Source of the DNA: Ceratobasidium sp. AG-K
Taxonomy: Eukaryota; Basidiomycota; Agaricomycetes; Cantharellales; Ceratobasidiaceae
NCBI GenBank assembly: GCA_037039685.1
Contig: JAWNGF010000002.1
Span: 6,696,001 to 6,760,000, forward strand
Direction: 5' to 3'
DNA length: 64,000 nt
Position numbers and translations under genes: made by a program
In this document: in pieces, positions 31,440-64,000 of the stretch
Numbering within the stretch: the stretch's first letter is position 1
How the letters are laid out: every line of letters starts with the position of its first letter
Notes under the pieces: model-generated
Seen by the model: the letters and a program-made list of their open reading frames with translations, nothing else
What the model was told of the DNA's origin: nothing
The model's database searches: none

Positions 31440-31707
31440 TGTTGCGATATGCGCAGTGCCGGGCTAGATAATCGTGTATCTCAGCTCGTGCTACTTGAGA
31501 GTAGAGAACTTGTATATATATACCTAGATAATCGTGTATCTACAGGTAATATAAGTAATAGAAAATGAAAAGAAACATCTAAACTATACCTCAGCTCGTG
31601 CTACTTGAGAGTAGAGAACTGAGGAAAACTTTCTCCGAAGCTCGAGACCATGTGGAACGCAATCACGTGATGCGCATATATCTACGTATAAGACTGTATA
31701 TTCAACA
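31440..31707 (-). repeat. Copia LTR (3' LTR of the element)
   Basis: 268 bp with TGTTG...CAACA ends. It is identical to 36078-36345 except C at 31473 against T at 36111. It contains internal duplications: a 30-bp block at 31481-31510 and 31591-31620, and CTAGATAATCGTGTATCT at 31464 and 31524. CACGTG occurs inside ATCACGTGAT. Confidence 0.97.
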
Positions 31708-31719
31708 CACCCACTCAGG
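31708..31719 (-). promoter_or_regulatory. Polypurine tract of copia element
   Basis: On the minus strand the bases directly before the 3' LTR read CCTGAGTGGGTG. This purine-rich stretch sits where the plus-strand primer of an LTR retrotransposon is expected. Confidence 0.6.
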
Positions 31720-31745
31720 ATTAGACAAAAAATGAAAAGAAATTT

Positions 31746-34700
31746 TCAAAACATTCCCATCCCAGCAATGAAGCCGGGGAATTTGACGCGTCCGAGTGGT
31801 TTGGTAAGCGCATCGGCGACCTGTTGGTCGGTCGGAATAAATTTGAGATCGACCTCGCGAAGAGCAATCACTTCTCGAATGAAATGATGTTTGACTCGTA
31901 TATGCTTCGTATTTTGATGATTTACGGGGTTTTTGGCCAATGCGATACTCAATTGATTGTCGGTAAGCAAGGTTGTCGGACCTTTGGACAAAAATCCGAG
32001 TTCATCAAGGAATTGACGAAGCCAAATCAATTGGCGGGCGGCGCTCGCAGCGGCGACGTATTCGGCCTCGGTACTCGATAAGGAAACTGTTGGTTGCTTA
32101 CGGGATGACCAAGCGACGCTCCCTCCGGCACGTTGGAAGATCCAGCCGGTAGTCGATCGGCTTGTATTCGGATCGCCAGCGTAGTCAGAGTCAACGTATC
32201 CGATCGGGTCGGACGATTTTGATCGTTCAAATACGATCCCGAGTGCCTTCGTGCCTTGTAGGTACCGCAAAACTCGCTTGAAAGCTGACCAATGCTCGTC
32301 GCCAGGATTAGCGGCGTGTTGGGCAAGCAAACCGGTCGCAAAAGCGATATCAGGACAGGTCGAAATCATCGCATACATGAGCGATCCGACACCACGCTGA
32401 TAAAGCGTTCGATTGACAGTAGGAGCATTGAGTTTGGGCAGGTTTGGGGTCTCTGCCATTGGCGTGTCCCACGGTTTGGCCTCGGTCATGCTGAATCAAG
32501 CTAGTATATCGCTAATATATCGCTTTTGACAAAACTTGAGTGTGCCAGCTTCGCGATTTCGCTTGATTTCGACACCAATGAATATGCGTGCCTCGCCTAG
32601 ATCGACAATATCGAATGATTTGCGCATTTTCGACTTGATTTCCTCCAGAAATGAAAGAGGTTTACCAGCGAGTAGCATGTCGTCCACATGAGCTAAAATT
32701 ATCGCCAAGTTATCGCCATCGCGTTGAATGAATACGGCGTGATCGCTTTCGGTCCGTGTGAATCCGATCGCCTCAAGAACCTCTTTAAGTCAAAGGTAAA
32801 ACACTCGGGCGGCTTGTTTCAGACCGATAATGCCTTAACGAGTTGCCAGACATGATTGCCTTTGGCAAACCCCTCGGGTTGCTCCATATAGAGCTCCTCC
32901 TCGACAACGCCATGCAGGAACGCAGTCTTGATGTCGAGTTGAAGTAACTCAAGGTCTTCACTCGCGACGATGCTGAAAAGCACCCTATATGCGTCTGATG
33001 CGGCTACTGGCAACGATATCTTGACATAATCGACACCTGGAGCCTGCAGGAATCCCTTGGCGACGAGTCTAGCCTTGTACTTGAGGATTTCGCCATCGAC
33101 ATCGCGCTTGTATGCATACACCCATCGACATTTGATAACTCGCTTGTGGCTCGGTCTATCGGCCGGTTTCCAAACTTTGTGCTCGGTAATCGACTTTATC
33201 TCCTCGATCATCGCCTCGAGCCATAGATTGGCGTCTGGACGCGCCATCGCTTCAGCATAGGTGTCGGGGGGATGCTCAATTAGCACATTCATGGCGCTCT
33301 CGGTCGTTGGCTTATCGGCTCGCGTGGCAGTCTCGTTCTGCGCACCCACTTCAGCTCTGTATCGTGTCGGCGGTCTCGTAACTCGACCTGATCGACGTGG
33401 AGGCTTGGGCTGAGTTACTGGCGGCTCTGGCACGACGGGGGAATCGCTTGCCGGCTCGATCTCGGGCTTGCTATTCGACTCTTCTGGCTCGGACTCGGAC
33501 TCGGATTCTTGCTCGTTTACTGACTCTTGGCGCTCTGGCTCGGTTTCTGACTCGACGGCGACCTCAGGCATTGGCTCTTGGCGTTCTTGATCGCCCACTT
33601 GCTCTGGGAACTCGTCCTCGAAGTCCTCGATGATCACTTGCTGTCAGGTTTTGCCTCCTTCATCAAATACAACGTCGCGTGAGGTGATTACGCAACCAAT
33701 TGGGCGCTGGATAAGCATGTGCGCCTTGCGACCTGGAGCGAATCCGAGGTAAGTGCATTCGAGCGATCTTGCCTGCAGCTTGGTACGTTGGCCATCGGGT
33801 ACTCAAACCCATGCCTTGCAGCCAAAAGTTCGGATTCGGGAGACATCGGGTAACTTGCCCGTGAATACCTCGTCCGGGGTTTTGCCGTCAAGCGACCGTT
33901 TTGGCGTCACATTCCAGATGTATGCGGCATGGACGATGGCAAACCCCCAGAACTTGTCGGGTAAGTCTGCATCTGCTCGCATTGTCCGTTGGCTGTCGTT
34001 TAATGTGTGAATCGCTCGCTCTGCAACGCCATTGCTGGCCGATGAGTCCGCCTCGGTCTTTTGGTGTTCGATTCCGTGCGACTTGAGCCACGCTTCGAAT
34101 GCGTTCGATGCGTATTCGCCTCCGCCATCGGTTCGTAAGTGCTTGATTTGCTTGCCCGTTTGATTCTCCGCTGACGCTTTTAGCTCTTTGAAGTGCATCG
34201 CATATTTGTTCTTGTGCTTAAGTAAGTGCACGAACATTTTGCGGGACTTATCATCGATTGTGACGGTGAAGTACTGATAGCCTTGAATCGCTTGAACAGC
34301 GACAGGCCCGTGTAGGTCGCTATGGAGTAGCTCAAGTACGTCGGACGCTCGATTTGTTGACGTCGGAAACGGGGCACGAGTCTGTTTGCCCTTGAGGCAC
34401 GGCTCGCATTTCGATTGCGGCGGTAAGCGACTTCCTACAATATCCATTCCTTGAACGGCGCCTTTTCTGACCATATCCAGCACGTATTTGTAGTTTATGT
34501 GGCCTAGGCGGCGATGCCAGGTATGTAGGTCGGCTCGAGCGATGTGACTGGCGGTATATGTGATGAACTTGTTTGCTTCTAGGTCGTCCTTATCGTTCAG
34601 GCCCTCCGGCTCAACAGTGGCAAGGTGAGCGGTCGGTTCGGCATGTTTAACTCGCGCATTTAGTCGGTAAAGCTTGACACCTAACTCGCATGCATAGCCG

Positions 34701-36073
34701 ATCTCGGGTCCACGGCCCTTGTCCTCGAGGAGCCTGGCATCCTTGTCGCCAAATAGAACGAAGGTGCCAGTTTTGGCAAGCTGTTTGACCGACATGAGGC
34801 TCGCATGCAGTCCCGGTACGTGTAGTACACCGTCAATGAACATTTCGGTCTCCTGACGGGCTTCGTTGCATAGCGTAAGCAGCACACGGCCGATTCCGGT
34901 CGCATTAGTCAGGTTCCCGTTGCCCACTCAAACTGGGATTGGTGGTACCAATGGCTGGTAAGTCGAGAACCATGCTCGATTTCGAGTCATATGTTTTGAC
35001 GCGCCAGAGTCGAGCAGCCACGTGTCTCGGGCAGACGGATCGTCCACGGCCGGCATCGCATATAGCGACGGCATATCCTCGGGTTCAGCGGGTGTCAGAG
35101 CCACTTTGGCTGACTCGGTTTTAGGTGCAGTACTCAATTCGCTCGGTTTCGGCTCGTTTGACTTAGCAGCTCGTCGCTTTTGGTGCGGTCCAGTCCCTTC
35201 GGCTCCGCCTCCTTTCGCCCAGCATTCCTTCTTGGTGTGCCCGGGCTTGGCGCAGTTATCGCATAAGGGGCCTTTCGCCTTTTTCTTCCCTTTCGGATCG
35301 CTCGGTTTCTTGGATTTCGGCTTGGGAGCTTGAGCATACATCGCAGTGAGTCCGTCGCCTGTCTTCCGTCGTTCCTCTTCAGTAAAGGCGGCATTTGTGA
35401 CCATTTCCGAGGTAATGAGTCCGGTCTGGGTGGATGTCTGGAGGATCGTACTGACAATCGCATAGGACGGGGGGAGCGCATTCATGAAGACTTGGGCAAG
35501 CAGTAGGTCGGTAACGGGCTCGCCGAGGGTCTTCATTTTCGAGGCAATCGATCGGATGCGATTGAAACCAGCAGATAAGTTTTCTTCCTCCTCGATTTTC
35601 GCGCTCATGAGTTGCTTATAGCAGAAAGAAAGCGACTGCATTCCTTTCCCTTCCCAGCGCTCAACAACTTTCGTCCACGCCTCGTGCGCCGATGTCGTCT
35701 CCCTCACGTCGGCCATCGCTCCGTCTTCCATGTTCAAGGTAATTTGAGCGAATGCATCATCGTCTCGTTTCTGCCAGTTTTCGATTTCGGTTTTATTGGC
35801 TGACACTTTGACAGAGTCCTTTTTATCGATCTCGGTGAGTGGTTCAGGCTGTCTTTCGGTGCCATAAGCGATTTTGAGCAGTCCTCGTATGCATAGGACC
35901 GTCGTTTGGCGGAATTTCCACGAATCGTAGTTGGATCCGTTGTCCTTCAAGAGCGGAATCTCGTAGGTTTTCTTACTAAGGTAAGCGTCGGTCGATGCCA
36001 TTGTTGGGGTAGTAACGTTTACAGCGTTCACTGGGTCCTCTTCTGCTTCACTTTTGACGCTACCAGGGCTCAT
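31746..36073 (-). pseudogene. Copia gag-pol polyprotein, interrupted
   Basis: One long reading frame from gag (start ATG at 36073; a later candidate start begins MASTDAYLSKK) to the pol stop at 31746. Gag has a CX2CX4HX4C zinc knuckle (about 35224-35265). Protease has LLDSGASKH (about 35000). Integrase has the HHCC region (HRRLGH...CEPC), then SDLHG, TDGGGEY and the late Glu. Reverse transcriptase has HVDDMLLAG. RNase H contains LLTDNQLS. In-frame TGA codons lie at 34928-34930, 33803-33805, 33644-33646, 32790-32792 and 32496-32498, and one base is missing near 32830. Each TGA aligns with a position where CGA (Arg) would read naturally, so C-to-T transition is the likely cause. The copy cannot make an intact polyprotein. 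Confidence 0.93.
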
Positions 36074-36077
36074 AACC
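36066..36077 (-). promoter_or_regulatory. Copia primer-binding site (half initiator-tRNA type)
   Basis: Directly after the 5' LTR the minus strand reads GGTTATGAGCCC, which is complementary to the anticodon region GGGCTCATAACC typical of initiator tRNA-Met. This matches copia-type priming by an internally cleaved tRNA. The gag ATG at 36073 lies inside this site. Confidence 0.75.
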
Positions 36078-36345
36078 TGTTGCGATATGCGCAGTGCCGG
36101 GCTAGATAATTGTGTATCTCAGCTCGTGCTACTTGAGAGTAGAGAACTTGTATATATATACCTAGATAATCGTGTATCTACAGGTAATATAAGTAATAGA
36201 AAATGAAAAGAAACATCTAAACTATACCTCAGCTCGTGCTACTTGAGAGTAGAGAACTGAGGAAAACTTTCTCCGAAGCTCGAGACCATGTGGAACGCAA
36301 TCACGTGATGCGCATATATCTACGTATAAGACTGTATATTCAACA
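36078..36345 (-). repeat. Copia LTR (5' LTR of the element)
   Basis: 268 bp, TGTTG...CAACA. It pairs with 31440-31707 and differs by one CpG-to-TpG change at 36111. Confidence 0.97.
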
Positions 36346-37749: not shown

Positions 37750-40700
37750 GTGAATCATAACGCTCAACCTACCGGCGGTCCATCCGCCCAAGTTACCCCG
37801 ACAGCGAGCACCCCACTAGGGCCCATAACGAACACCCTGGCAACAAAAACCGAACCAAGCCTGGCAATAGCCACGCTGAAGACGGTCCTCGAAGGGCTAC
37901 GGTCGAGTCTGACTGGGCTCCCGCCGCTACAACTGGCCGTTGGTGGATTGTTGGAGTGTATTGTGCCTGTAGCGGTAGGATTTCGTGCCTCGAGACTATC
38001 CTCACGAATCTGACAGTCGAACAAACCAGGTCGGGGATCAAAGTCACCAAGCATACAACGAATTAGCAGGTGATCTGACCAACCTGGCAACTCTGCTTCA
38101 AAAGCATGTCGTCGATGCGAAGCCACGTTACGTACCATATTCGATCGCCAACGTTGCGCGGTAGGTGTTTAAACCACCTGCATTCGGCTTGAGGTTGACG
38201 CTCCGAATAGGTCTATTACTGAACAGACGAGCATCATCCAGGAGCACCAGAATCGGTCAAAGATCGGCCGCCTGGCTCTGGGACTCGAAGATGAAGAGGC
38301 TGTGCTAAAGTGCTATCGTCGGATCGGCGCATTGTTTGAGCAGCTGCAGGTGAGCATTCCGAGTCGACTGCTTCAGCAAAGGGCCTCACATGATGACAGG
38401 CCGACATTTCGTTGAGCATCTGGGACGCTATGCGAGAACAACAGATGGTATGGAACTTGACGTGTTTGCTTTTTTGCGGAGAATAAGAGCGTATGATGTT
38501 TAAAGGACACTCGCCTCAAGGACCTCTCGCCAGTGCACGATGCGTACTACAATGCAGCACTCCCCACCACGGCCATGAAACGATTAGGATGTACAGAGCA
38601 CACTCGCGTCGAGATACTCGACACCACTCGTGGATGGAGCCGAGAGAGGGATGGGCCGAAGATCTTCTGGCTGAACGGCATGGCTGGCACCGGTAAAACC
38701 ACCATTGCCTACACACTGTGCAAAATACTCCAAAAGGATAACCAGCTTGGAGGTAGCTTCTTCTGCTCTCGCAACTCGCCCCACTGTCGAGACGTCAACC
38801 GGATTGTGCCGACGATCGCATACCAGCTTGGACGATACTCGAACCCGTACCGCCAGGCGCTGTGCAGCGTACTCGACGGCGACCCAGACATAGGGAAACG
38901 AGACATCGGTACGCAGTTCGAGTACTTGATCTCTAAGCCGTTGGCCGAGGTGGGCAAGGCGATGCCGACGGATGTAGTCGTGGCGATCGACGCTCTGGAC
39001 GAGTGTGAGGACGTGGATGGGACCCAAGGCGTGCTGAACTTGCTACTTCGACATGCAGGCAGTCTGCCGATCAAATTCTTTGTGTCTAGCCGGCCCGAGC
39101 CTTCGATCTCCGACAGCATGATGACTAGTAATGGTGAAATGCCCTCGATCCTTCGGTTACACGATATCGAAAGGTCTCTGGTACAGGCTGACATCCAGCT
39201 CTATCTCGCCGAAGCGCTGGGATCCATCCAAATTACCGTTGCGGAGATTAGTCAGCTCGCTGAACAATCGGGCAGCCTGTTTATATTCGCCGCGACGGCT
39301 GTACGATATATCATGTCCAATAAAGGCCTTGTAGATCACAAACAACGGCTACGGGTAGTGCTGAAGCTACGTCCAAGCTGGGGAAACAAAAGCTATGAAG
39401 GCATCGACAAGCTGTATGCTACGATTCTATCAACCGCATTGGATCCAAAAACGTTCGAGGAGGCTGAACTTGAGCAAAGACAGCAAGTGCTATGGACAGT
39501 GGTTTGTGCGAGAGAGCCCTTGACGATCGCAGCGCTCGCCGAAGTTCTTCACACGCTTGAAGTTGAAGCAGTCCAGCGCGCAATACTTCCCCTACAATCT
39601 GTACTGCATATATCGGAGACTACAAGCATGGTTTCCCCGCTTCACGCATCGTTTCCGGACTTCTTGTCGAGCAAGGAGCGTGCTGGACCGCATTACTGCG
39701 ACGCGACGTCGCATGAGTCTTATCTAGCAGAGTGCTGCTTCAAGCTCATGGATCGGTCACTGCGGTTCAATATATGCGACCTAGAATCGTCATACGAGTT
39801 TGACAGCGATATAAAAGACCTACAGGATCGCGTCGCCCAGAATATCTTTACTGGGCTTTTCTACGCGTGCAGATACTGGAGCGACCATCTGACAAGAAAC
39901 TCGCCCTCACCTCAGCTACTTTCACTTCTCGAATCGTTTCTGCAGAGTCGTCTACTCTTCTGGATGGAGGTGCTGAATCTCAAAAGATTAATCGGCCACG
40001 GCGAGAACGTACTGAGCCAGGTGCTGGCCTGGGTTCCTGTGAGTATCTACATATATTCACACTATTTTCCGCCAATAATTTCGAGTAGACACAGGATGAA
40101 AACATTAGACTCAGAGATTTTGCCTATGACGCACGCAACTTCCTCACTGCCTTTGCCGGCAATCCCACCTCGCTCTCCACTCCACATATCTACCTGTCTG
40201 CACTACCATTCGCGTCCAAGCAAAGCCTAGTTCATGCAACCTACCAGCCCCAGACACATGGACTGATACAAGTGAAAGGTGCAGTGATGGACACGGGAAG
40301 GAAGTCGGCACTCGCAACCTGGGAAGTTCCGAGTAGCGTGAATAGCCTAGCCCTATCCAATGACGGCAGGCACGTCGCCTCTGGCTTTACCAACAGCGAA
40401 GTGAGCGTCTGGGACATATCTAGCGGCACTTGCATCCTAGGACCACTAGCGGGCCATGAACACCCAATTTGGTCAGTCGCATATTCTTGGGACAACTCCC
40501 GTATCGCTTCCGGTTCTTTGGACAATACTATCTGTATCTGGGATGCACACAAAGGCAGCTTGAGCGCTGGCCCTCTTCGCGGTCATACCGAAACAGTCCT
40601 CTCCGTCGCATTCTCACCTGATGGAGCTTGCCTGGCTTCGGGCTCACATGACCAGACTGTTCGGATCTGGGACGCATGGTCGGGTACTCCAATTGGCTTG

Positions 40701-42332
40701 CCTGTCAATGCGAACCAGGGTGCTGTGTTTTCCATTGCGTTTTCACCAGACGGAGAGCGCCTTGCCGCAGGGTCGGATGACTCCACAATCCGGGTCTGGG
40801 ACTGGAAGAAAAGCACGATGGCACAGGGGCAGTTTGAAGGGCATACGGGTGCCGTGCATGCCATCGCATATTCTAGCGATGGCCTTCGTCTGGTGTCCGG
40901 TTCACGAGATAGGACGATTCGAGTATGGAACTCGTCGAGTGGCACATTGCTGGCCGGTCCGTTCGAGGGCCATACCGGTACCGTCTCGTGCGTTTCATTC
41001 TCACCCGATGGCGCTCGAGTCGTATCCGGTTCGTATGATTCTACAATTCTCGTATGGGACGCTGTGAGCGGCAGGTTGGTGGCTGAGTTCCTTGTGGAAC
41101 AGTGCAGTAATATCAACTCGGTACTGTTCACTGCGGACGGCACCCGCATCGTGTCCGGCTCAAGCGACGGCACGATCCGCGTATGGGATCTGCGCCACGG
41201 GGCGACAAGTGCTATCGAACCGTCAGGACAAACCGGCCTCATCCACTCTGTTGCATTGTCAACCGACGGCACACGCGTTGCATCCGGCTCACATGATTGC
41301 ACGATCTGCGTCTGGGACACGCAGAACAGCGCACTCGTCGCCGGTCCGTTTGAGGGCCACACTAGTTTCATCACCTCGGTGGCATTCTCGCCTGACGGAG
41401 CACGCATTGCGTCTGGATCTCATGATTACACCCTGCGGACTTGGGACGCGTCCACTGGCGCTTTACTTCTCGGTCCGCTTGAGGGTCACACCTTTGGGGT
41501 CCAGTCGGTTGCCTTTTCCCCCGATGGTAGCCAGATTGCATCTGGTTCCGGTGATTGTACTGTCAGGTTCTGGAACTCGCACACCGGGGAATCAGTTGTT
41601 GAGCCATTCAAAGGCCACACAGGGGGAGTCACGTCGATCGCATTCTCACCCGACGGCACCTGCATTGTCTCCGGCTCGTTCGATCACACCATCCGAATGT
41701 GGGACGTCAAGGATGGCACAACACTCTGGACTTCAAATGCTCACACCAAGGATGTGTACTGCGTGGCGTTTTCCCCTGATGGAACGCGTGTAGTGTCTAG
41801 TTCGAATGACTGCACTATACTAGTGCTGAACGGACGTGATGGTGCGGTGCTACATGGTCCGTTCACAGGTCATACCAGCTCTGTCCGGTCAGTTACATTC
41901 TCGCCCGACGGAACATGTATTGTATCTGGCTCTTATGATGAAACAGTGCGCGTGTGGGACGTGGAGAGCGGCACGACGGTGGCCGGTCCACTCAAGGGTC
42001 ACACTGGTGTGGTTAGCTCTATCGCATTCTCTCCTGACGGTGCACGCGTCATTTCAGCCGGCGCAGCGGTATGGGTCTGGGATCTAGCGGCTGTCGCTCA
42101 AGCAAGCCCATCTGATGACTGGTCCATCGACGAGAATGGATGGCTGACCAACTCTCAGTCACAACGGTTGTTCTGGGTACCCCCCGACCTGCGCGCTAGG
42201 TTCGGGCTCCTTACCGCCTCCAACCCCATCGTGATCAACGCTGACTGTACGACCCGTATCACCCAGTCTACGCTGATGGGCGATCGGTGGCGTGATTGCT
42301 GGGGCGTGTCGTTGGAGTCAGATTTGTCCTAG
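37750..42332 (+). CDS. NACHT-WD40 receptor (NLR-like STAND), copy 2
   Basis: Paralogue of the gene at 24417. Exons: 37750-37974, 38030-38160, 38211-38349, 38400-38447, 38506-40038, 40089-42332, giving 1439 aa. Exons 2 to 5 have exactly the same lengths as in copy 1 (131, 139, 48, 1533 bp), which fixes the structure. Walker A is GMAGTGKTT (about 239-247) and Walker B is VVVAIDALDECED. The exon-6 region has 14 WD40 repeats (typical unit AFSPDGTCIVSGSYDETVRVWD) and the same conserved tail. All frames are open and all repeats look intact, unlike repeat 13 of copy 1. The N-terminal exon is the most divergent part. An STAND-type role in recognition or incompatibility is inferred from architecture; the trigger is unknown. 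Confidence 0.92.
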
Positions 42333-50287: not shown

Positions 50288-51777
50288 TTACGGATAGACA
50301 TTCGAATCATGGTCAGGGAAGTCTGGGTCCATCCTTCCGAGTTGCGTGGAGGAGGCATGTTTTATGAATGGTTCGAGTTGGACAAAATCGTCTCCCAAGT
50401 CGCCAAATAACTCAAACACGCACGGGTCCATGGAAGGTGCGAACGAGCTCGCGCTCGAGGCCAGGGTCGATCTTAGATAAGTCTCGAGAACATCGGCCAC
50501 ACGTTTGTTTCCAATTGATCCATTCATTATATGCAGCTCATGGGGCCCAGTGTATGTCTTGGGCCACAGAGCGGGAGTTCGACCCGCCGGGGGACTGTGT
50601 CCATAGCTATCCAACGCGTTACAACGGAGGATCAGGGTATCGAAATCGCGGCATGATGATAGGTATTCATTGATTCGAAATTTAGGGCCGGTATTAAAGA
50701 TGCGTAATTGTTTGACCTGGCAGCGCTCAAGGAATGCTCGACAGCCAGAGAAGATTCGCGGCCTCCATATAAATCGATTGATAGAGATAAGCGCTGCGAG
50801 GGCACAGAAAGCTTTGTTAGAAGGCAAGATAGCCCAAAGACCCTTTGTATCTGCAAGTGTTTGAGCTGGGTCAAGGCTAGGTTAGCCGCCTCATTTGGTG
50901 ATGAGTATATCATAATTTCTCGGAGTTTCAGAATTTGAAGCCATGGACATGCCGAGAGGGTTTGAAGCAAGGACGGAGCCGTCGTGCCGGCACTCTCAAG
51001 CTGTAACACAACGAGGTTATGGGACACGAGTTTCAGTCGATGTGAGAACCCCCCTCTAAGGCGTAGTACACGGATGGACTCTGCAAGCAAATCCCAAAGT
51101 TGTTGACTCATCACACCCCTCCTAAGGTCTATAACCTTCGTAAGGTCATCATGCAGCCAGATTATTAGTGTACGGACGGACCCAGCTTGTCCGTGTGCCA
51201 TCCAAGCGGAGACCAGTCGGCGAACTCGACGAGGGTGACTCTGGTTGAACAGGTTGAATGATTCGACGCGCCTGAAATATGGTTGGAGGCACTCTACTAT
51301 CATACTCATGCCCGAGTCAGAAATATTTTTCTGGCCATCGACCCAAATACTTAAGGGTGCATCCTGGGTACGTCGAAGGAACAACTGCGCAAGGTCGCGG
51401 GACTTCATAGAGTCTTTCATAGCCCCAAGTGTCAAGTGTACATGCGACCAGAGCGAAGAGGTACCAAGAGTGATAACGCGCCAGTAGCTGCAAATTTGAG
51501 ATAAAGCAAGTGGCTGCTTGTGATAATCATGGAGTTGAGATGGATTAGCTGGGGGACAGGGATGACATGGTTCTTGCCACATAATCAAGCAGAAAATTTG
51601 GAGCAGAATCTCTGGTGGGAGCTTATCGGCCAATGACCTTGTAGTCTGGGTAGCGGTTCCTCCAGCTTGCTCATTGATGAGTTGATTGACTTTTTGTGTT
51701 GAAGAGGCTGAGTTCTGGGGATCCTCGCTTGGAGGGAGGTAACGTGCTGTCGAAAAATCATCATTGTTGGCGGACAT
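50288..51777 (-). pseudogene. F-box protein with one frameshift
   Basis: Intronless minus-strand gene. From the ATG at 51777 the first frame has an N-terminal F-box (LADKLPPEILLQIFCLIMW ... LALSQICSYWRVITLGTSSLWSHV). A long leucine-rich-like region follows, ending near 50737 in LAVEHSL. A natural continuation (ERCQVKQLRIF ... HDSNVYP, stop at 50288) lies in the next frame. One missing base near 50737 explains the break; no intron fits. The first frame otherwise reads on to a stop at 50632. F-box proteins of this kind recruit substrates to SCF ligases, and a SKP1-like gene lies 4 kb away. It is either a young pseudogene or a sequencing error; the rest of the frame is clean. Confidence 0.75.
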
Positions 51778-53036
51778 GCCAGCAGGTTTCAAACAGTGCA
51801 ACGTGATTAGCGGACCAGATGGACTGCAGGGTAAAGGAATTCTGTTGTGGTTGGCCGAGATCTCTACAAATGTGTAAAATATCATTTTATGGTATCAAAG
51901 TGCCCAGTTTCAGTATGATTACCCTTTTTGGACAGGATTTAGTAATATTTATATCGATTTTTGGGACAACTTATCCCACCACCTTGTTTTTCAAATTCAA
52001 GAATCAGACCCAGAGGCTCAGATATTAGGATAGTTTGCACCGAAAATTGGTTGAATCCATACCGAAATTCGATAAAATACCGAATCTGGACGCTTTGATA
52101 CTGAAAAATGGTATTTTTGTCATTCTCAGTGGATATTACTAATAGAGCCCGGGTTTATGTAATGCGCCTGTGAGGCCAAGCCTGGATCTCGACTTCTGGC
52201 TACTTTGCCGTGTCAGCACACAGATACTTCGAAGATTGCCGGTCCCATCACGTCATTGAAGTTAGCCACTGGTTAAGAGTGAGATAAATTATAGGCCAAA
52301 TTACTCTCTTTGTGTCTGGGTTCCGCCTAAATCCGGCTGAGGTAGTGCGATGATTGTGGATCTGGGGCTTATGGCACACAATCTTGAACATGGTGTACCG
52401 ATTTGATTATGTAAGCTTCCTCTCTAGTGGCTGAAGTGGACATTTTTGGATGTCAGATATATTAAAAGATTCAAATACATTGCTAATATTGTGGAGGTGT
52501 GAAGTCATGACGCATATACCCAGCTCGCAGGGGTACCTCCTTGTGAGAACCTAGAGTTCGATCATTCAACCCGCTCTTGAGCTTTCGGCATAAATGTCAA
52601 CAGGTTTTTCGTACACCTGTGTGTCTCTAGAGGGTTTTGTTTGGCGCGAGTGGTCAACATTCACCTTTTGCGCCTGTGGTCCGTCACGCCGGTAAACTCA
52701 GCGCCTCGGCATTACAGTACGATGAACGTTCCAGCCGGGCGCGAATTGAAAATCATGAGGTACCCCTTGTTTCAAGATAGGTATGCGGGAGCCTTTTCCG
52801 CTTGACTCCCCTTTGGTCATTTCAACGGCGGGTCCGCCTCAGAAATCGTTATTCATATAATCACGTGTATATGCTAAGTATTTACGATATCATCTGCTTC
52901 GACGGTCATGTAAATTTTAGTAGATTTAAATCATTAATCGAGAAGGGTACTGTGCATGGACAGCAATCCTTTGGTGTTGGTTCTTGCCTGGGTTGTTCGA
53001 GTCATCATTGTTTATGTCAGATGTTGCCGAGATGCC
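51778..53036. other. Intergenic, 1.26 kb
   Basis: AT-rich upstream flank of the F-box gene and left flank of the RecQ/DUF6589 element. No gene is recognised. Confidence 0.4.
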
Positions 53037-53045
53037 GGTCGTTCA

Positions 53046-53252
53046 TAGACTCCTTCCCAGACCTTGAGCACGTGCCGCTCAGGGAAAATACAGGGTTCTT
53101 TTCGCACTGGCTGCGTGCTCGAAGGACTGGCCCCATTCTCCCTGTTTGCATGTATGTACCAGGTTCGCCACTGATGAAGTCGTTCTCGCTGTTACTCCCT
53201 GTGTCACTTTTTCGCATCGCACGTGATCCTACCGGTCATATTCCTGTCACTC
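53046..53252 (+). repeat. Left 207-bp terminal inverted repeat
   Basis: Begins TAGACTCCTTCCCAGACC. It is the exact reverse complement of 58650-58856 and ends 50 bp before the helicase ATG, so it likely contains the helicase promoter. It contains CACGTG and is open in the helicase frame, so a longer N-terminus starting inside the TIR cannot be excluded. Confidence 0.95.
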
Positions 53253-53302
53253 GCTTGTATCTATCCAACGACTTTCTTTATTCTTACCGTCTAACGTCTA
53301 AT

Positions 53303-56038
53303 ATGGGGTCTGTTACCCCTGTTTCTTCACCTGAAATCACCTTGAAAACGCTCTCAACTCTCGGTGTTACACCATGCAAGTTCCAGACTCAAGTCTGCGA
53401 TCTTCAGCTTCAAGGTCGCCACTGCTTTTTGATCTCCCCGACCGGTTCAGGGAAGTCGCTCTCGTTTTTGATGCCATTTATCTGGCAGAGGACAGGTGTA
53501 TGCATTCTAATTTCGCCTCTTCAATTACTTGGCAACCAGCACGCTACACATCCTTGGATCGAAAAGCTTGGTATCCGGGCAATCAACCTGACGGCTGAGA
53601 CAACATCTGACAGTTTATTTAAGGTATGTATGTCCAGAAATTTCCGCTCTACACAAATTAACCACAGTCCCATTGTTTATTGCAGGATATTGCAGCAGGA
53701 AAATACCACCTAGTTGTGGCGTCCCCCGAATACGTCGAGCAGGACTCACGATTCCGGAAATATCTGTGGGACTCGGCGAGCTTTCGAAAGCAGGTGACAC
53801 GCATTGTATTTGACGAGGCCCATTGTGTTATGGACTGGGGAGGATTCCGACCAGCATACAGGCGCCTTCGGTTTCTCCGCCCTCTTCTCCCCGACGCAAC
53901 CTTCCTTGCTCTTTCCGCCACACTCACTCCGACTATGGTTGCTGAACTTAAATCCCTACTTGGGCTATACGATGTCAAGGTCATTCGCCGCTCAAACGAT
54001 CGACTCAATGTTGCCCCTGTCGTCAAACCTATGAAGTATACACTTCAATCCCTCCATGACCTCGCATTTCTGATTCCCCTTGGTGTTGATCTCACCGTGT
54101 GTCGCCCGCCAAAGTTCATGCTGTTTGTACAAAGCAAAAAAATGTGCCAACGGGCTGGGCACTTCCTCCGGGCACGATTGCCACCAGATGATCAAGACCG
54201 TGTGCTTTGGGTTCATTCGGAAATGACGAGTGGCTTCAACCAACGCACAATGGAAAAACTTCGAAACAGTGAGATCTACGGGGTAGTCTGCACAGACGTG
54301 GCAGGAATGGTAAGTTGTTTGCTTACATTGACTTGCTTCGAGTAGAATAATCTACATTTGACAGGGAATTGATATTCCCGATGTGGTTTTATCTGTACAA
54401 TACCAGGTACCAGACAAACATTGTACACATTACCAGCGTTCGGGGCGTTCGGGGCGCGATCAGCAGCGATGGGCGTATTCAATACTTCTGGCCGAGAAAA
54501 AGTACCTTGACAAGACCAAGCAAATGCAGTGGGAGCAGGCCAGAAAGGCACAAGAAACGAAACAGAAGAAGAAGCGGAAGGCCGAGGCCACACTTGAGTC
54601 GCCCAAGCCATCTCAATCACCCCGTGTCAACCTGCCAACTGGTTTGGCTCAGGCCAGTGATGTTACTGTCAAGCTGGAAGAGGACGTTGAGAGCAAACCT
54701 GTCCCTGTGATCCTAGCTCCCGTTACACCTAAACAAAGCCAGAAAAGGCTTGACATTGAACCAGTCATGGATCAGTACATTAATGCGCACTCTCGTGGGG
54801 GGGCATCGGCAACAGGAGATGCCCAACCAAGTTGTCGCCGCTCAGCTGGGAACAGCTTCTTTGGGAATCCATCAGTTCCTAAAGGTGTGTGCTTCTTTAC
54901 ATTCGTGATTGGATTGATCTTCACCACCACTCCAGTGGGCGACGACAACTATTGCTGTACACGTTGCTGTCCTCCAACACCCCCTCCCGACAGGTGCTGC
55001 GACATGTGCAACCCTCTCCTTGCTGACACTTTAACAGGGTGTGTTTTAAAAGAACCCCCACCATCAACCAACCGAGCCCCAGCACAGTCAAAAATACCCG
55101 CCAACAAAGCTAGTGACTGGACAGATGCTGACGTTGGGCTAAAAGAGGCACTCTGCTTTTGGCGGGATCAAGCCGCTGAGGCACGATGGGGTCCAAATCA
55201 CCTGGTTGGGGGACTGGGGATCCTCAGCAATCAGCAAGTCAAGCGTATTATTGAACTTGCCCGACTCCAAATTGTTCCCACACTCTCCGACTTCACAAAA
55301 GAGTTGAAATGGCTCTACATGCCTGTCTATGGTGCCGAAGTGCTCTCGATTGTTCACAGTTCCCACCCTCCTCGCAAGCCCCAGCCTCCAACCATTCCCC
55401 ACAACCCCATCTCAATAATCACCCAAGCAGATGGAGTTCCAGGCAATGTCCTAGTTAAGACTCCAAAGCCACCGGTTTGTACCAGCTGCTTCCAGGCTGG
55501 TCATATCCGTAAGTGTGTCCCTATCAATTTACTAATGGTTGGCGTTGATTCCTGTTTCCCCTGCTGTAAAGGCTCAAGCCTCTCGTGCCCAAATAAAATT
55601 GCCAGACTGGCTCGTGGATCGAGTGATGATATTGGTCAAATAGCCTGTACAACACCATACCCAAAAGGCCTCAATCCATTGCCCACTTCAACGTTCTGGA
55701 CACCTGTCCATCCTCCAGCCACCACAAGTAATCCACATCTTTCCTCATCGCTCAACTATAGTCGCAGTCCAACAAACCCACCAGTCCCTACCACGTATCA
55801 TTATCAATATTTTGATCATGCTAATACATTGCCCGCAGCCCATGTTTCCCCTGCCTACTCATCTACAGATAGGTCCCACTGCTCTGGCCGTGCGTCCTCC
55901 TCTGCCGCACCACCTTTTGCTTCTTCCTCCGCACCATCTTCAACACTAAACCACAATTTGCCAGGCATATCCAGTGCTGCATTCATACCTGCAACAAACG
56001 CATTGACGGGGGTGGAATTGAGGGGTCGCCCAGGATGA
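53303..56038 (+). CDS. RecQ-type superfamily 2 DNA helicase of the TIR element
   Basis: ATP-dependent DNA helicase. Exons: 53303-53623, 53686-54309, 54365-54884, 54936-55508, 55572-56038, giving 834 aa. The motifs are complete and in order: I, SPTGSGKS (K51); Ia, LISPLQLL; II, VFDEAHCVMDWG (D150-H153) followed by the RecQ-like GFRPAYRRL; III, LALSATLT; IV, KFMLFVQSKK; V, VVCTDVAGMGIDIPDV; VI, YQRSGRSGRDQ. The C-terminal 450 residues are a Lys-rich region, a cysteine-rich patch (CCTRCC ... RCCDMC) and a second putative zinc knuckle (CTSCFQAGH), likely DNA binding. The final 60 codons overlap the opposite gene and are low-complexity, so the true 3' end may lie earlier. Its place inside TIRs suggests a role in transposition or repair of the excision site. 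Confidence 0.85.
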
Positions 56039-58624
56039 TGTATGTTCATTTCCTCTCCTTCAAGGTGCCGTCGTAGCATGGCTAAGTTTGTTTTAACGAC
56101 AGGTGGTGGATGACGTATAGTCTGTGGTGTCAAATAAAAATTGTCTTCAACAATGCCGTGCACTGCCTGATAGTCTTTGATTAGTGGCGATTCCTTGATG
56201 AGATTGTCGAGTGTGCGGTTAACACCCGAGCCAGAGTGTAAGCACTTGTGCATGTAGTTATTCCGCTCTACAACCCAGTCCACCCCTCGGAATCCGTCAC
56301 GCTTGCCTGTAGGGTTGGCCAACCAATTCCGCCTGACAATTTCCGACAGCTTGGCTGGCCAGCCTTCATCAAGGTATGTTAAAAAACGAGTGGTGTAGGT
56401 CGCATATTTATGCTTTTTTGTATGGCGCCAGATGTAGACCCAGAAAGGGAGCAAATCTTCGACTCGCTGGATGTCGCCATAGCGTGATGCTCGTGTTGTG
56501 GCTAGGTACAGTAGGCCATCGCGATTAAACATTTGTATCTGGTCCTGGACCGAGTCGGGTTGAGAGAGATCGTCCTCAAACTCATTGGTTGGGTCATACA
56601 TCAACAGTGTAACGTAATTGCGAACCACTTCGCGTGAGACAGCAAGAATATTGTCCCAATTTGGCGTCCAATCTGTCAAAGAGACGCCAAATTTTGTGGC
56701 AACAACTAACCTCCAAGCATCGGCGATTGTGGCAAGCATCAGGTGCTCAATCAGGCTATGGGTACGTCGAAATCCTGGGTTACTGCTGATCTTCCCAATC
56801 TCTCGTGGTCGCAACAGGGTGCAGAGGTGGAAGATGGAGTGCGGGTGGGTAGCATGACCGGTACGGGGTTTGTCGGGCTCGATCCAACGTTGCCAGAGTG
56901 AGTCCGCCATTGCCATGCGGGTGTGGAACCACCCATTGATAAATACTAGGAATTGAAGCCGGTCTACGGCCGTATCTTCAATTTGGCGACTCTGTTGCAA
57001 GCTCCGGATCTTTTCGCCTGTGCCCAGATCACCGTGTACAAGGATAACATGCGACTCAAGGTCTTCGGTACGAGCACCACCCTGTGCAAGCATGTTGCTA
57101 ATTGCTGCAGCGTTCCCGGACGTACTAGAGACACAGATGTTCATGGTCTGTAGCGGTATTTGGGTTGTTTTGGTTGCCGGGAGGACCCTTCGGGCGCTGG
57201 GAGCGCCTAATTCGATACGGCGGAACTTCTCCTTTAGTGCCGGGGGGATTGTCTCGAGGTTATCGTTGAGGAGGATGTCGCGGGCGTGCCAGGCAAATAG
57301 GGACTCGATACTGTCAGGATGATCAGCAGGAAAGGACGCCTTTGCAACCAAACGCATGAGCTTGTCATGCGACAGGGTGACCAGGGGCAGTGATTGGTTT
57401 AGGTTGAATTCAGAACGTGCCCAGACCGCTTGACAGAGGCGTAAGTCGGCTTTGCTGATACCAGAACATAACTGGACGAGTGTCGCAGTAGTCAAGCTGA
57501 CCAGTTTTCCATTATTTGTTGCAGTCGGCTGCTCAGTATCGAATCGAACCTCGAGGTTGTCGTATGCAACAGCCCATAATAGAGTGGCTAGCTTGTTCGC
57601 TAACGCTTTCCTTGCTTCAATCGACATGCTCTGCACCATCCGGTCGATCGACAAGGGAGCAATGCTCAGGCCTACGCGAGAGAATAGCTCAACAATTTGA
57701 GCGGGGGTATTCATCGAGTGCAAAAAGAAACCCGTGACCGCTTGCAGCGCATTACAGCGCATATTGCTGTTGCTCATGCATATAGAAAACAGTGCTATTC
57801 GTCGCTGAAACCACAAGGTGAGTACAATGTTACTGGACCTGCTAAGAATGCATAAGGCTCACTACATGTGTTCGTTGTAACTGTCTCTGGACTGCATTTC
57901 CAGTTCGGGCCTTTTTCCGTGCCCCATCGGCCGTGTTCTCTGCACCCGGCTGCCCACCACCAGTCGCTGCGTCAACGTTGCCGTTACCTCCAGGTTCTTC
58001 ATCTATATCCAACCAGTAGTCATCCTCAAGGTATCCTCCCCAGTCCTCGTCCGGCATATCCTCTACGGTCTCCAACATCTCAGCCTGTCCTCGGGTTTGT
58101 GTATTACGGCCAATAGAAGCTGGAAAATCGCATCCATTCAGGTGGGTAATTTTGGTTAAGTAGTCGCCTTGTTTATTGCTTGATTTGGCGGCGTGTTGGG
58201 CGGAGACGGCGTTAAGCAACACGCCAAACAGCTGCCATAGGGACGGGCAAGTCTCCTCAAAAATTTTCGCCATTTTCATGCTTGAAAACCCGTGGAACTG
58301 TGAAGGTGAGGCATGCGCCACATTGAAATGAAACCCAGCGGACGAGGTCAAAAGTTTGTTGATTTCGAGAGCGTATGCTCTACATGCGATGTTTCGAGCG
58401 ATTAGGTTGATTGTAGGCGCAGTTTTGGGGGTAGAAATGAGCGCATGGACAATATTGTTGAGCGTGGCGGGCTGGCATAGGTTTTCACGGAGGGTATATG
58501 CATGCCCGGTGAGCTCGTTTGACTGCACAACCCCAGTTACATAAGTACAAAGTAAATCACCAAGTGTAATATTATTGTCTACAAGTAATTGGGAGATGAG
58601 ATTGAGCTGTCGGTGAGAGACCAT
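55855..58624 (-). CDS. DUF6589-type protein, candidate transposase
   Basis: Two exons on the minus strand (57863-58624 and 55855-57804) with a canonical intron give 903 aa. I recognise it as resembling the fungal DUF6589 family, common in basidiomycetes and of unknown function. The N-terminal third is helical with an acidic linker (about 190-235). The second part has AYDN (D336) with VRFDTEQPT, then HVILVHGDLGTG (D513), then HLCTLLRPREIGK and a C-terminal charged region. Spaced aspartates in beta-strand-like settings fit an RNase H-like DDE transposase, but this is inference; I cannot fix the third acidic residue. The ATG lies 26 bp inside the right TIR. The 3' end overlaps the helicase coding region by 184 bp. 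The frame is intact. Confidence 0.8.
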
Positions 58625-58649
58625 TTTTTTCGTGGCGCGGAGCGTGCAA

Positions 58650-58856
58650 GAGTGACAGGAATATGACCGGTAGGATCACGTGCGATGCGAAAAAGTGACA
58701 CAGGGAGTAACAGCGAGAACGACTTCATCAGTGGCGAACCTGGTACATACATGCAAACAGGGAGAATGGGGCCAGTCCTTCGAGCACGCAGCCAGTGCGA
58801 AAAGAACCCTGTATTTTCCCTGAGCGGCACGTGCTCAAGGTCTGGGAAGGAGTCTA
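58650..58856 (-). repeat. Right 207-bp terminal inverted repeat
   Basis: Exact reverse complement of 53046-53252. It ends 26 bp from the DUF6589 ATG, so it likely supplies that gene's promoter. Confidence 0.95.
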
Positions 58857-58865
58857 GGTCGTTCA

Positions 58866-59348
58866 TAGTTAATGGCCCACTCGTGGGCTGACACCCAAGC
58901 CCTTGTTTGGCTTGTGCCATGCTCACAAGCCCAGAGAAATTTTCTTGGAGCATCTTGGCATATGGCTGCATGCAACTACTGGGGCGTATGGCCGATCAAC
59001 TATTGCATACATAATTTCACCTATATTATGACGTAGAACCGATTGGCCATGACATACAGCGGCACGGGAAGAACACAATCGAACCTCCTGCCCACTCTTA
59101 CTGCCAAAGGTGGATGTTTGGTCCGAAGCCTACTTCGTCGAGGCATGTTATCGTGATTTGCGGGCGGCGTTCCTGACCGTCCTGGTATGCAAGCGTGGTC
59201 CGGGGTTATCCCGGCCGCCAAGTTGCACTATGCCACCCGCTTTTATAATTCAGTCTGTTTGGGGAAGGGTCTGTTCAGCTCATTATCCTCTGTCTGTTCT
59301 CCGCCAACCTCTCACGCACCACCCTCCTTTCTGATATACCGGTTCAGT
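58866..59348. other. Intergenic, 0.48 kb
   Basis: Right flank of the transposon and upstream region of the membrane protein gene. No gene is recognised. Confidence 0.4.
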
Positions 59349-60099
59349 ATGACTTCCTACCCCGAACTAAAGAATAGAACGTGCTGTTGTGGTATCCCAT
59401 CGTGAGCTTGAGCTGTTGGTTGGTCTGCTAGTTGTCTGACCAACGTGAAAATGTATAGGCGGGTTGGGGTTGCAATTATTGCATGGCTTTATTTTTTTGC
59501 TGGCATTGCGGTCACCGTGCTAGCCATTATGCTGTTTATTCAAAGTATGTTTATAACCCTAGCCTTGCTGGTTTGATGTTGACGTTGAATGAAAGGCGAG
59601 TTGACCGTATACACCACGACTGGCGCCTTGGTTATCTTGATTGCTGTTTTGGGCCTAATACTTACTTGCGCAGCAGCTCTTGGGTAAGTTGGTCTCTCTG
59701 CGTCTGCTTCGCTCTTAAACCTGGGTCTTGACCTGCCTTGGATTTAGGATTGCTGCAACGATTGGACAATCTCCTGGCATTGCCAGTTTCTTCTCTGGCC
59801 TGTTCATCTTCCTACTCGTTCTGCAACTCGCGTTTGACGTTGGAGTTATTGTTCTCATATTCACAAAGCAGCTTGATTCATTAATCCCAGCATGTTACCA
59901 TCCGCGAACGCAACGATCCAGTACTTGCGCCAGTGGGAGGACTTCAAGAGGCGTGATCTGGATAGTACAGACTGTCATTAGGTTTGCCCTTGGATTCTGT
60001 GAGTACGGGCATTGGATGTGTGAGAATTCTATTGAGCTGGAGCCCAGATTTTTCCCGTCGGATTGCGAGCTTCAGTCGACAGTGTGCGGAACGGACTGA
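59349..60099 (+). CDS. Small multispan membrane protein
   Basis: Exons 59349-59401, 59459-59544, 59596-59683 and 59748 onward join in frame with short GT-AG introns. The protein starts MTSYPELKNRTCCCGIPS and has hydrophobic segments at about 22-43 (IIAWLYFFAGIAVTVLAIML), 52-75 (LVILIAVLGLILTCAAALG) and about 90-118 (IASFFSGLFIFLLVLQL ... VGVIVLIF). It looks like a tetraspan-type basidiomycete membrane protein with a Cys-rich N-terminus; I do not recognise the family. The 3' end is uncertain. The simple frame runs to 60099, but one more intron could switch to a frame reading TIRERNDPVLAP near 59905, or to a soluble Pro/Ser tail ending at 60391. Confidence 0.6.
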
Positions 60100-60854
60100 C
60101 CCAGAACTGCATGCCCACCTCGTGTCGATGGCTGCCTCCGCCAAGACTCCGAAGCTTGCGAGTGGCACGACATTCGCGTCACACTTGCCAACTGTTAATC
60201 CCGGTCGGTCACCCCAAATTCGAGTCTCTGCTCCAGGCCAAGCTCCGCCCAGTTCCCGAAGCTCAATCCCACAAGTAGGACTCCTAACGGTGCCACAGCG
60301 TCCTACCAGGCAGTCTCGATCCAAGGCGCTGAGCAAGTCAAGGGACCCACTAAGAGTCATGGAGATGGGACCCTTGGGTGAGTCTGCGTAAAATTTCTCA
60401 TGTGGGGTGTAACGCAACATGCATTCGGCCGGGGTAAGATGTAAAGGATTGGAGCTAGGTTTCAAGTGGGAGCTTTTGGTGGGTGCGGAGTAGACGAACG
60501 AAGGCCGGTATGTTCATAGTAAATTATTTCTTTGGGTATTTTTCTATATATGAACTGTAATCAGATGAGGCTTCCAGCCGAGGTGGTGTTTGTGAGTTTG
60601 AAAGCGCCCCAGGTTCGAACTGCGATGGATGAACGGTTACCCATCCACAATGCGGACTTTGTGGGCCTTATTTATTATAACTGATGCACTATCTGATATA
60701 CGCTGGCATATTATATTCACGCACAACATTTGTCTACTAAAGCGAGCAGGGTATATGCGTTATGCAATCCGGTTTCCACTTTATTATGCATAACTTTATC
60801 AATCCGAAAGCCAAGCTCGATCGGTTCTACCCGACCAACAACCATACGCTCTGC
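60100..60854. other. Intergenic, 0.75 kb
   Basis: Possible 3' tail exon of the membrane protein (open frame to 60391), then AT-rich convergent spacer. Nothing else is recognised. Confidence 0.4.
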
Positions 60855-62627
60855 TTAGACTTCGAAGCAACTAGTGAAGTTTCCCCCCGCCCTCGAATAA
60901 GCCTGGCTGGCAACAAATCCATCCAGCGCACATAACCCTTTGGACGTTCCCAACTTTCCACACTCGGAAAGGCCGTTGAGTGGAATCACCCTATCGTTGA
61001 TGATAATCCGCACATAGTCGCCTTGCAGGCCGGAAGTCGAGCAGGAGAGTTTCTCGACGACGGTCGACCCCGCAAACGGAACGAGTTTAGAAACCACGAA
61101 TTGCTGCTTAGAGCTAGAGGGTATTGGGCCACGCGAGGGAAGATCCTGTGCGTCGCGAAGGATACCCAGAGCCGAGAGAAGCATTGCGATGTTGTTGTCA
61201 CTGGAGAAATCCGCAAACTGTATGTATCATGCTGTTAAGTGTGTGAAGACAATACGAGCTAGAACCAAGCTTACGATTTTCGGAGCTGTCGGGCCGATAG
61301 GGAACGTAGCATTATTCGAGTTGAGGGTACTGTTTGTGGTGGTATGATCTTCCACTGGTGTACCCGTCAGACGTGCGAGGAGCTCGTTGACCCAGCCAGC
61401 GCCTTGGGAGCGTGCATATGCCGAACCGTACGACTTTGAGTAATATTTCTGCGAAATAGCCATTAAGTCTAGCCGGAAAGTGTGACAAGGGGTTGACTTA
61501 CCTCGAGATCATAATAATATTCGTTCTGCTTCCATTCATCCTTGCTAAATACGGCACACCATGGGCTTGGACTCCCATTCTTGGCAGCGGTATCGAACCC
61601 GCATAGACTCATCAAACTATTGGTGTCGTTGTCGTTAAGGTTTGCTCCAGGCAAATGCTTGTTTAATCGCTTGGTGATTGCAGGCGCGAATTTACTCAGC
61701 CACTCGCCGGAAGCGATATCACCGGGGGAGGGATCCAGAGCCTCAGCTGCGACGCAGGTTTGGACGTTGAGGGTGTTGTTGCTCGTCTGTGAGGATACTT
61801 AAATATCTCGGAACCAGGAGTGCAGGGGATGAGACTTACGTCGCTGATGAGGATTGACACATCGGGCTGTGGCAAGCTCGCAATCGACACGTTGAACAAG
61901 CCACCTTCAAATCCCTGCCTCCACCATCTCGCAGACTCGACGATCCTATCTTTTTTTGCTGCGCGGACGAACTTGGCGCTCCCCAGGGAAGCATATTTCT
62001 TCGCAATAATTTGCCCCGAAATATATGATCTACCTCCTCGCATCAGAACGCCACAAATACTATACTGGAAGCCTGGAAGTTGCTCACTGGTTCCGGCCGA
62101 AATCAACCAGCTGATCTGCCGTGTATGTGAATCTGAATGAGGGGGCGAACTGGAGTTTGGGGTCTGTAACATTTGTGACGTTGGCCAGCTTTGCGAGTAC
62201 TGCGTCGATGTCGGCGCCGCTGCCCGAAGTGGGGAATCTAGCACCGTGGCGCTGCAACTGCGCGCATGGAAGGCCCATCAATATTTTCAGTTCGTCTTCA
62301 CGAAGATTCCAAATTGGGAAATCTGAACTTACGATGTTGACCATGCTCACGGAACATCCGGTGGGAACTTCAGTGGAGATTTCGCTGGGGACCGCGTATC
62401 GTGGGCCATATGGTCCGAGCTATTTCACAAGAAGGGACCATTTAATACTTCGGGAAATACTGAAGAATGACACTACTCACGTTGTGGGCAATCTTGTCAT
62501 CCAACTGGTAACTGGGAAGTGTGGGTAGCTTAGCGCTATCGGCACGCTCAACGTGCAAGGGCTCAGAGTGAACATATGTCGCCACAGACACGATTCCACC
62601 CAAAACCAATACATCTTTAAGTCCCAT
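60855..62627 (-). CDS. Histidine acid phosphatase (phytase-like), secreted
   Basis: Secreted acid phosphatase of the phytase (HAP) family, releasing phosphate from inositol phosphates or other esters. Exons on the minus strand: 62481-62627, 62333-62419, 62088-62257, 61840-62029, 61502-61786, 61275-61448, 60855-61217, giving 471 aa. A signal peptide covers about 1-21. The catalytic motif LQRHGARFPT (nucleophile H82) is intact, as are NQSYISGQIIAKKYASL and SLCGFDTAAK. The late motif that is normally HD (proton donor) reads FADFSSDNN: Asp358 is kept but the preceding His is Ser357. Several N-glycosylation sequons (NVT, NNT, NST, NAT, NFT) fit secretion. All splices keep frame. Activity may be altered by the His change. 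Confidence 0.9.
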
Positions 62628-63453
62628 CTTGCGTTGAATAAAACGTACTGTGAAAAGAGCCAAGAAATAGTAAGTTACCAAGAACTCCCACTCTCCCCTC
62701 GAGTATTTATATTTAGTAGAAATAAGGGACGCACGTACAGTAATATGGGAGTATAGTGCTTCTCTTGCATCCTCCACATGCCTCCAGGTCAACAGCTGTC
62801 GAATCCTTCTGCTTCGCGACCGCTTGCGGGAACGATGGTGGTTGGCTACTCATTGCTCAGGAAGATATCTAGGCATTCTCTTATATCGTTCGACGTGGGG
62901 TGGCAGAGTAGCTAGAGAGACACGTGTGTTCCGAGCATCGCTTTTCGGGGGACGAGCCAATAGTAAATTGGCAAAGGCTTGGAGAAGAGGAGCGAAGTTC
63001 GGGGATGCCCGAAACCGGCATTGCCCTCTCACGTGGACCCACGTGCGTGGCGTCAATAAATCTAGCTTATTTCCGGTTCATGAAAACCAAGCTTAAGCGG
63101 ACCTCAAATCGCCCATTGGTCTCCTTGGATAGCGGCCGTCGTTGGGCTGCGTCGTGACCTGCAACTTGGCAGAACTTGTATCGATATGGAGATCGTTGAA
63201 ACCATCCGAATCTATTTGCTGGCGGTTCGGCTGACTGTTGTAATTTGTCCAAATGTGATGTCACATCAGGGTAGCGCGTCTCAACAACACCAACCACCAC
63301 TCCTTGTCTTTCAGTCCGCGGATAGGCCATTGCTCAATATTGGAACCAAGGGGATCTCATTGTCGCTGATACTGTGATTCAAAGCTATCTGCCTTGCCGG
63401 CTACTATTTCTTGAATTAATTGATTATCACCGGCGAAAGAACGTGTATCAGTC
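62628..63453. other. Divergent promoter region, 0.8 kb
   Basis: Separates the phosphatase (minus) from the gene at 63454 (plus). No gene is recognised inside. Confidence 0.5.
62704..62711 (-). promoter_or_regulatory. TATA box of the acid phosphatase gene
   Basis: The minus strand reads TATAAATA, 77 bp upstream of the ATG at 62627. Confidence 0.55.
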
Positions 63454-64000
63454 ATGGCGAGCGTATCGACATCTACAGCGTATATTAGCCCTCTGAGCGT
63501 GTCATTTGATGAGCCAAGCCCAGTTCCATGGCCAGCGACCTTTACTTTAACTTCTATCGGTGACTATCCTTTCGGGTAAGTCTTGTCTGTGCCACACCAA
63601 CCAAACAACTCACATATCTCAAGTCCTCCTCAGACCGACTCGATAGAGGCCTATGTCGAACGAAGATATCTCGAATGTCTCTGGATGCCGGAAGTCCTAG
63701 AGCCCCTGTCTTCCTTTATTCCTTCCCTTCGACGAATAACCCCGTCAAAAGGTTGGACAGCTGCGTTCGGACCACACCCGCTTCATGCGGTCCTGGATGA
63801 ACATCTACTGGACTTGGTTGATATTCACAAAAAATATCGCAAGACGATTCCTGTACTGTTGGAAAAGGAGGGAGACGCACAGGATCCGGAAGAGGCGTGT
63901 ATTTGGTACGCATGGACGCATGCTCAGCCTGTGCACGAGGAGCAAAAGGATGAGGAGGTCAACGAGGAAAAATGGGCCAAGGATTGGTTACACGAAGCTG
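63454..64000 (+). CDS. Uncharacterised protein, 5' part (runs off window)
   Basis: The ATG at 63454 opens exon 63454-63575. A GT-AG intron (63576-63623) follows, then an exon open to the window end. The visible 166 residues start MASVSTSTAYISPLSVSF. They are soluble, with VERRYLECLWMPEVLEPL and a charged stretch rich in Glu/Lys (EEQKDEEVNEEKWAKDW). There is no signal peptide or membrane span. I do not recognise the family from this part. Clean splicing and the long open frame support a real gene. Confidence 0.65.

Follow-up and report, generated by a model that had tools for sequence, protein, structure and literature searches.

What kind of element places a RecQ-family helicase gene and a gene of the DUF6589 family, a Pfam family of unknown function, side by side between perfect inverted repeats? 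The question is raised by positions 53037–58865 of a 64,000-nucleotide stretch (the window) of contig C2 (JAWNGF010000002.1) of the basidiomycete Ceratobasidium sp. AG-K. An original prediction, made from the letters of the DNA, had proposed a terminal inverted repeat (TIR) transposon not described before. We read the locus as a two-gene DNA transposon, likely AcademH, with DUF6589 as its predicted DDE transposase and the RecQ-family helicase assisting (probability about 0.85).

Element ends and the empty site

The element proper measures 5,811 bp (53046–58856). A repeat search of the window returned a left TIR of 207 bp at 53046–53252 (+ strand, starting TAGACTCC) and the same 207 bp at 58650–58856 on the − strand. 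The perfect repeats of the original prediction were confirmed on rechecking: the arms are 100% complementary over 207 nt and are separated by 5397 nt. The repeat search listed two inverted-repeat pairs of ≥80 nt in the 64-kb window, of which the TIR pair is one. The predicted 9-bp flanking duplication, GGTCGTTCA, was likewise present, its left copy at 53037–53045 and, by sequence inspection, its right copy at 58857–58865. Two intact genes converge between the TIRs as expected, the helicase gene on the + strand and the DUF6589 gene on the − strand, neither with an internal stop. The two start codons lie 50 bp and 25 bp from the TIRs.

The empty site that the original prediction had proposed to look for was found on the same contig, ~546 kb away. 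The left flank (52500–53045) matches C2:6202615–6203165 at 97% identity and the right flank (58866–59500) matches C2:6203166–6203800 at 99%, the second match directly abutting the first. In this paralogous segment GGTCGTTCA occurs once, exactly where the window has the whole element. The ends, the duplication and the exact empty site together support the assignment to a TIR DNA transposon.

From 51538 to the window end, the sequence aligns to the paralogous segment in pieces of 98.2–99.1% identity; two stretches, both beyond the element, did not align (51872–52131 and 63361–63451). The two matched segments represent a segmental duplication with only one arm occupied by the element; it is at least several kb long and 98–99% identical (window 51538–64000 versus C2 ~6201926–6208204). 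On the simplest reading of the alignment, the insertion would be later than the duplication. Mismatches amount to 0.93% in the main aligned pieces, from which ~1.9 TIR differences would be expected if the insertion were as old as the duplication. None was observed (P ~0.14), which suggests that the window element inserted recently. Recent movement, claimed originally from TIR identity, thus stands as a suggestion and falls short of being established.

The two genes and their predicted products

The DUF6589 gene (58624–55855, − strand) has two predicted exons and encodes 903 aa. Exon 1 (57863–58624) specifies the N-terminal part of the predicted transposase, for which a mostly helical model of low confidence was obtained (predicted local distance difference test, pLDDT, 68.0; predicted template modelling score, pTM, 0.42). 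Exon 2 (55855–57804) specifies the predicted catalytic core. PF20231 (DUF6589) matched the window protein at E=7.1e-87 and was the only Pfam family found on the transposase at E up to 0.1. An RNase H-like (DDE) fold was predicted for the protein, with a triad of D86, D263 and E517 as first catalytic Asp, second catalytic Asp and catalytic Glu. Their codons lie on the − strand at 57559–57561, 57028–57030 and 56266–56268 (numbering of open reading frame (ORF) 57816–55858). GabR, with E no better than 0.85, was the sole hit when a profile of 41 relatives was run against solved structures, and an NCBIfam search of two transposase ORFs gave no match. The window protein lacks a C/DxxH motif in the D263–E517 interval; a C/DxxH-like string occurs in 17 of 41 relatives, at scattered offsets and in ≤5 rows at any one offset. 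On its modelled fold and triad, the DUF6589 protein is likely the DDE transposase of the element, and the original assignment of this role is very probably correct. Our literature search found no paper naming DUF6589, so the assignment is one that we infer here.

The helicase gene (53303–56038, + strand, 834 aa) is separate from, and convergent with, the DUF6589 gene. Its five predicted exons lie at 53303–53623 (motif PTGSGKS), 53686–54309 (DEAH and SAT), 54365–54884 (QRSGRSGRD), 54936–55508 (a conserved Cys cluster) and 55572–56038 (C-terminal tail, stop at 56036–56038). Splice sites of both genes are predictions backed by protein relatives, not by RNA. We take the four named motifs to have their usual helicase roles. 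Pfam matches were to DEAD (E=1.2e-23) and Helicase_C (E=1.9e-16), the query translation including one unspliced 51-nt intron, and the best relatives among solved structures were RecQ, BLM and RecQ1 (E 6e-27 to ~5e-24). Downstream of the motifs, the Cys cluster is kept in relatives, several of which also have a CCHC-like knuckle. The tails of the helicase and transposase genes overlap on opposite strands over 184 bp (55855–56038). The helicase relative P0047 has the same kind of ending, so this arrangement may be old.

Copies in the same genome and relatives elsewhere

A single place in the genome matches the interior of the window element at the DNA level. PF20231 gave 10 matches there at 9 loci, the window locus included. 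Seven other loci were compared (L012, L013, L014, L015, L016, L038 and L041), with C7:167954 left out. A helicase gene lies beside DUF6589 at four of the seven (L012, L013, L014 and L038), always convergent, so other copies with both genes, which the original prediction had proposed to look for, do exist. Neither L016 nor L041 had a match to the helicase. L015 lacks the helicase half and is 99.4% identical to L014 over 4.9 kb, flank included, which points to segmental duplication and not to transposition. A right-end remnant is present at L012, where the left end was not found, and no TIR pair was found around the DUF6589 fragment at L041. The E motif of the triad was not found in L038 or L041.

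Duplications of 9 bp were also to be looked for at other copies, and three other elements have exact ones. These are GCTAATTCC on C11 (9/9 match), TAATTAGGT on C1 (9/9 match, with a longer right end) and GTCTCGACC on C7; the C17 duplication matches at 8/8 or 8/9. The target duplication of L038 is less certain, because its right end has ~28 bp absent from the left TIR. In a control with random ends (400 trials each), exact 9-bp pairs arose 0 times for L013, 0 for L014, twice for L038 and once for L017.

The C7 element shares the TIR start and matches neither gene. It is 2,323 bp long (L017 3613–5935; C7:1182613–1184935) and non-autonomous, with composite TIRs of 304 bp (98%). Its first 90 bp are 90–91% identical to the window-element TIR, and only bases 1–90 match the window family; for bases 91–304, matches at 94% were found at two other genomic places. 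The pattern of the first 29 TIR bases was found only at both ends of the window element and both ends of the C7 element. A further segment, C2:3355068–3355125, matches the first 52 bases of the C7-element TIR at 83%.

The gene pair is also seen in other species. Six of the 19 best helicase database matches (P0047–P0065) come from a contig equal in length to that of a DUF6589 protein and, judged by length and organism, appear to share it; three of these six helicase/DUF6589 pairs have consecutive locus tags (FRC09_006428/006429, FRC10_002263/002264 and CTheo_1347/1348). In word-limited searches, named matches among the 45 and 44 DUF6589 relatives were all fungal, and no PF20231 match was found in 14 control genomes. 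That the two genes keep occurring together, in copies that have diverged and in further species, suggests that the helicase matters to the element. The original view of it as part of the transposon is supported.

Probable assignment to AcademH and its alternatives

The primary description of AcademH is reportedly that of Kojima (2020). Papers describe AcademH elements as having duplications of 9 or 10 bp, against 3 or 4 bp for AcademX, a difference seemingly tied to their enzymes, helicase versus nuclease (PMC10045372). They bear DEAD and Helicase_C domains and have a low copy number in Basidiomycota, Ascomycota and Mucoromycota (PMC10799480). In fungi, Academ copies encode DEAD (PF00270) and recQ_fam domains, and annotations often present them as genes of the host (PMC6416283). 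The window element has a RecQ-type DEAD/Helicase_C helicase in place of the AcademX nuclease, and a Pfam search of six ORFs at E up to 0.1 returned no nuclease family. Its duplication is 9 bp, with one copy in the empty site, and its single interior and fungal named relatives agree with low copy in fungi including Basidiomycota. AcademH is therefore the best filing, since a helicase, a predicted DDD/E transposase, duplications of 9–10 bp and a fungal host fit these descriptions. The original prediction had called the element undescribed and held that a match to a named superfamily would count against it. That novelty is not borne out, because the combination is AcademH as set out in the three papers, and the description largely amounts to such a match. 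New here are the empty site, a copy whose two genes are both open, and the role that DUF6589 likely plays.

Several points weigh against this reading. The filing, though likely, rests on published descriptions, not on sequence comparison with Academ transposases. AcademH has been reported from animals too, whereas the named DUF6589 relatives are all fungal. A helicase match is absent at three of the seven other loci, and with Foldseek alone no match for the transposase model reached E 0.001. The empty site might instead have arisen by precise excision from the second arm of the segmental duplication, and the 9-bp stagger and the part of the helicase in the mechanism below are ones that we infer.

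The alternative that survives best is a DDE superfamily apart from Academ, with an independently acquired RecQ helicase. The DUF6589 transposase and RecQ helicase would then form an obligate pair, the helicase melting the ends and helping to set the 9-bp stagger, and RecQ would have been recruited independently here, in AcademH and in KolobokH. Filing by description, with no sequence link shown between DUF6589 and an Academ transposase, favors this proposal, as does the fungal origin of all named DUF6589 matches. However, helicase, 9-bp duplication, fungal host and low copy all fit the AcademH description. An unrelated lineage sharing that whole trait set would be a coincidence, and we consider this origin unlikely.

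Much less probable is KolobokH, the group of the Kolobok superfamily that encodes a RecQ helicase. It is known only from fungi, and one red-alga Kolobok has RecQ on the complementary strand, like the window element, according to PMC9587614. KolobokH is a further known case of a cut-and-paste transposon with such a helicase. Kolobok elements target TTAA (PMC6004289), whereas the 9-bp duplications here are non-TTAA, and the C/DxxH motif given for Kolobok (PMC9587614) is absent between D263 and E517 of the window protein. KolobokH was rejected on the duplication and the missing motif, although the RecQ helicase itself agrees.

The chance of a Mutator-like element (MULE) with a captured helicase gene is slighter again. 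MULEs typically have long TIRs and duplications of ~9 bp, in which the window element resembles them. However, searching the transposase against Pfam at E up to 0.1 found DUF6589 alone and no MULE transposase domain, and the window protein lacks the C/DxxH motif of MuDR as given in PMC9587614. Nor is the helicase a one-off capture, because it recurs next to DUF6589 in diverged copies and other species. We therefore rejected a MULE or MuDR element.

Least probable of all is a host, telomere-linked RecQ gene lying with a DUF6589 gene between chance or assembly-made inverted repeats: the element is ~26 kb from the end of contig C2, but an empty site exact to the base and with one duplication refutes a chance or assembly-made repeat, the TIR start and 9-bp duplication recur on C7, the gene pair recurs at four other loci and the helicase is enclosed by the TIRs. 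In the final 9,087 bases of contig C2 there are five CCCTAA and no TTAGGG, and the final 200 are without a telomere array.

Proposed mechanism and significance

For the AcademH-type transposon that we favor, the transposase would bind the inverted repeats via its N-terminal region, with catalysis by the predicted DDE triad of D86, D263 and E517. It would release the element and join this to target DNA whose strands are cut at points 9 bp apart. The 9-bp duplication would then come from filling of the gaps by the host. The helicase might melt the ends, process the strand-transfer joint or aid repair of the donor gap, which is the least certain step.

A Pfam family of unknown function would thereby gain a likely function, that of a DDE transposase, and RecQ-like genes paired with DUF6589 in Ceratobasidiaceae would be transposon genes, not host helicases. 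A copy with open genes, defined ends and an empty site provides a basis for asking whether a transposon-borne RecQ is needed for transposition. It also suits the question of whether a RecQ helicase influences target-duplication length.

Other features of the window

A probable Copia-like long terminal repeat (LTR) retrotransposon lies at 31440–36345, with two identical 271-nt long repeats, ends TG...CA, CCGCC on both sides and ORFs on the minus strand that we take to be gag-pol-like; the Copia-like naming is likewise our assumption. Two copies of a gene or gene pair, ~71–79% alike and 13.2 kb apart, lie at 25261–29091 and 38497–42332. Each presumably encodes WD40-like repeats preceded by an ATP-binding (NACHT-like) portion, and the genes are perhaps similar to NOD-like receptor (NLR)-type immune receptors. 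An inverted-repeat pair at 1662–2094 (104-nt arms, 91% complementary, 225 nt between arms) is possibly a small non-autonomous element.

Comparison with known transposons

The hAT transposase Hermes (4d1q, 6dwz) is 10% identical to the window transposase over aligned residues, and the latter has no C/DxxH. Duplications of hAT elements, Hermes included, are 8 bp, against 9 bp in the window element. Helitrons are also mobile elements of fungi with a helicase; they are rolling-circle elements with neither TIRs nor a target-site duplication, and were rejected on the 207-bp TIRs and 9-bp duplication found here. KolobokH shares with the window element the character of a fungal cut-and-paste transposon carrying a RecQ helicase. 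From AcademH, compared by description only, no difference was found, and the two have in common a RecQ-type DEAD/Helicase_C helicase, a 9-bp duplication, TIRs, low copy number and a fungal host.
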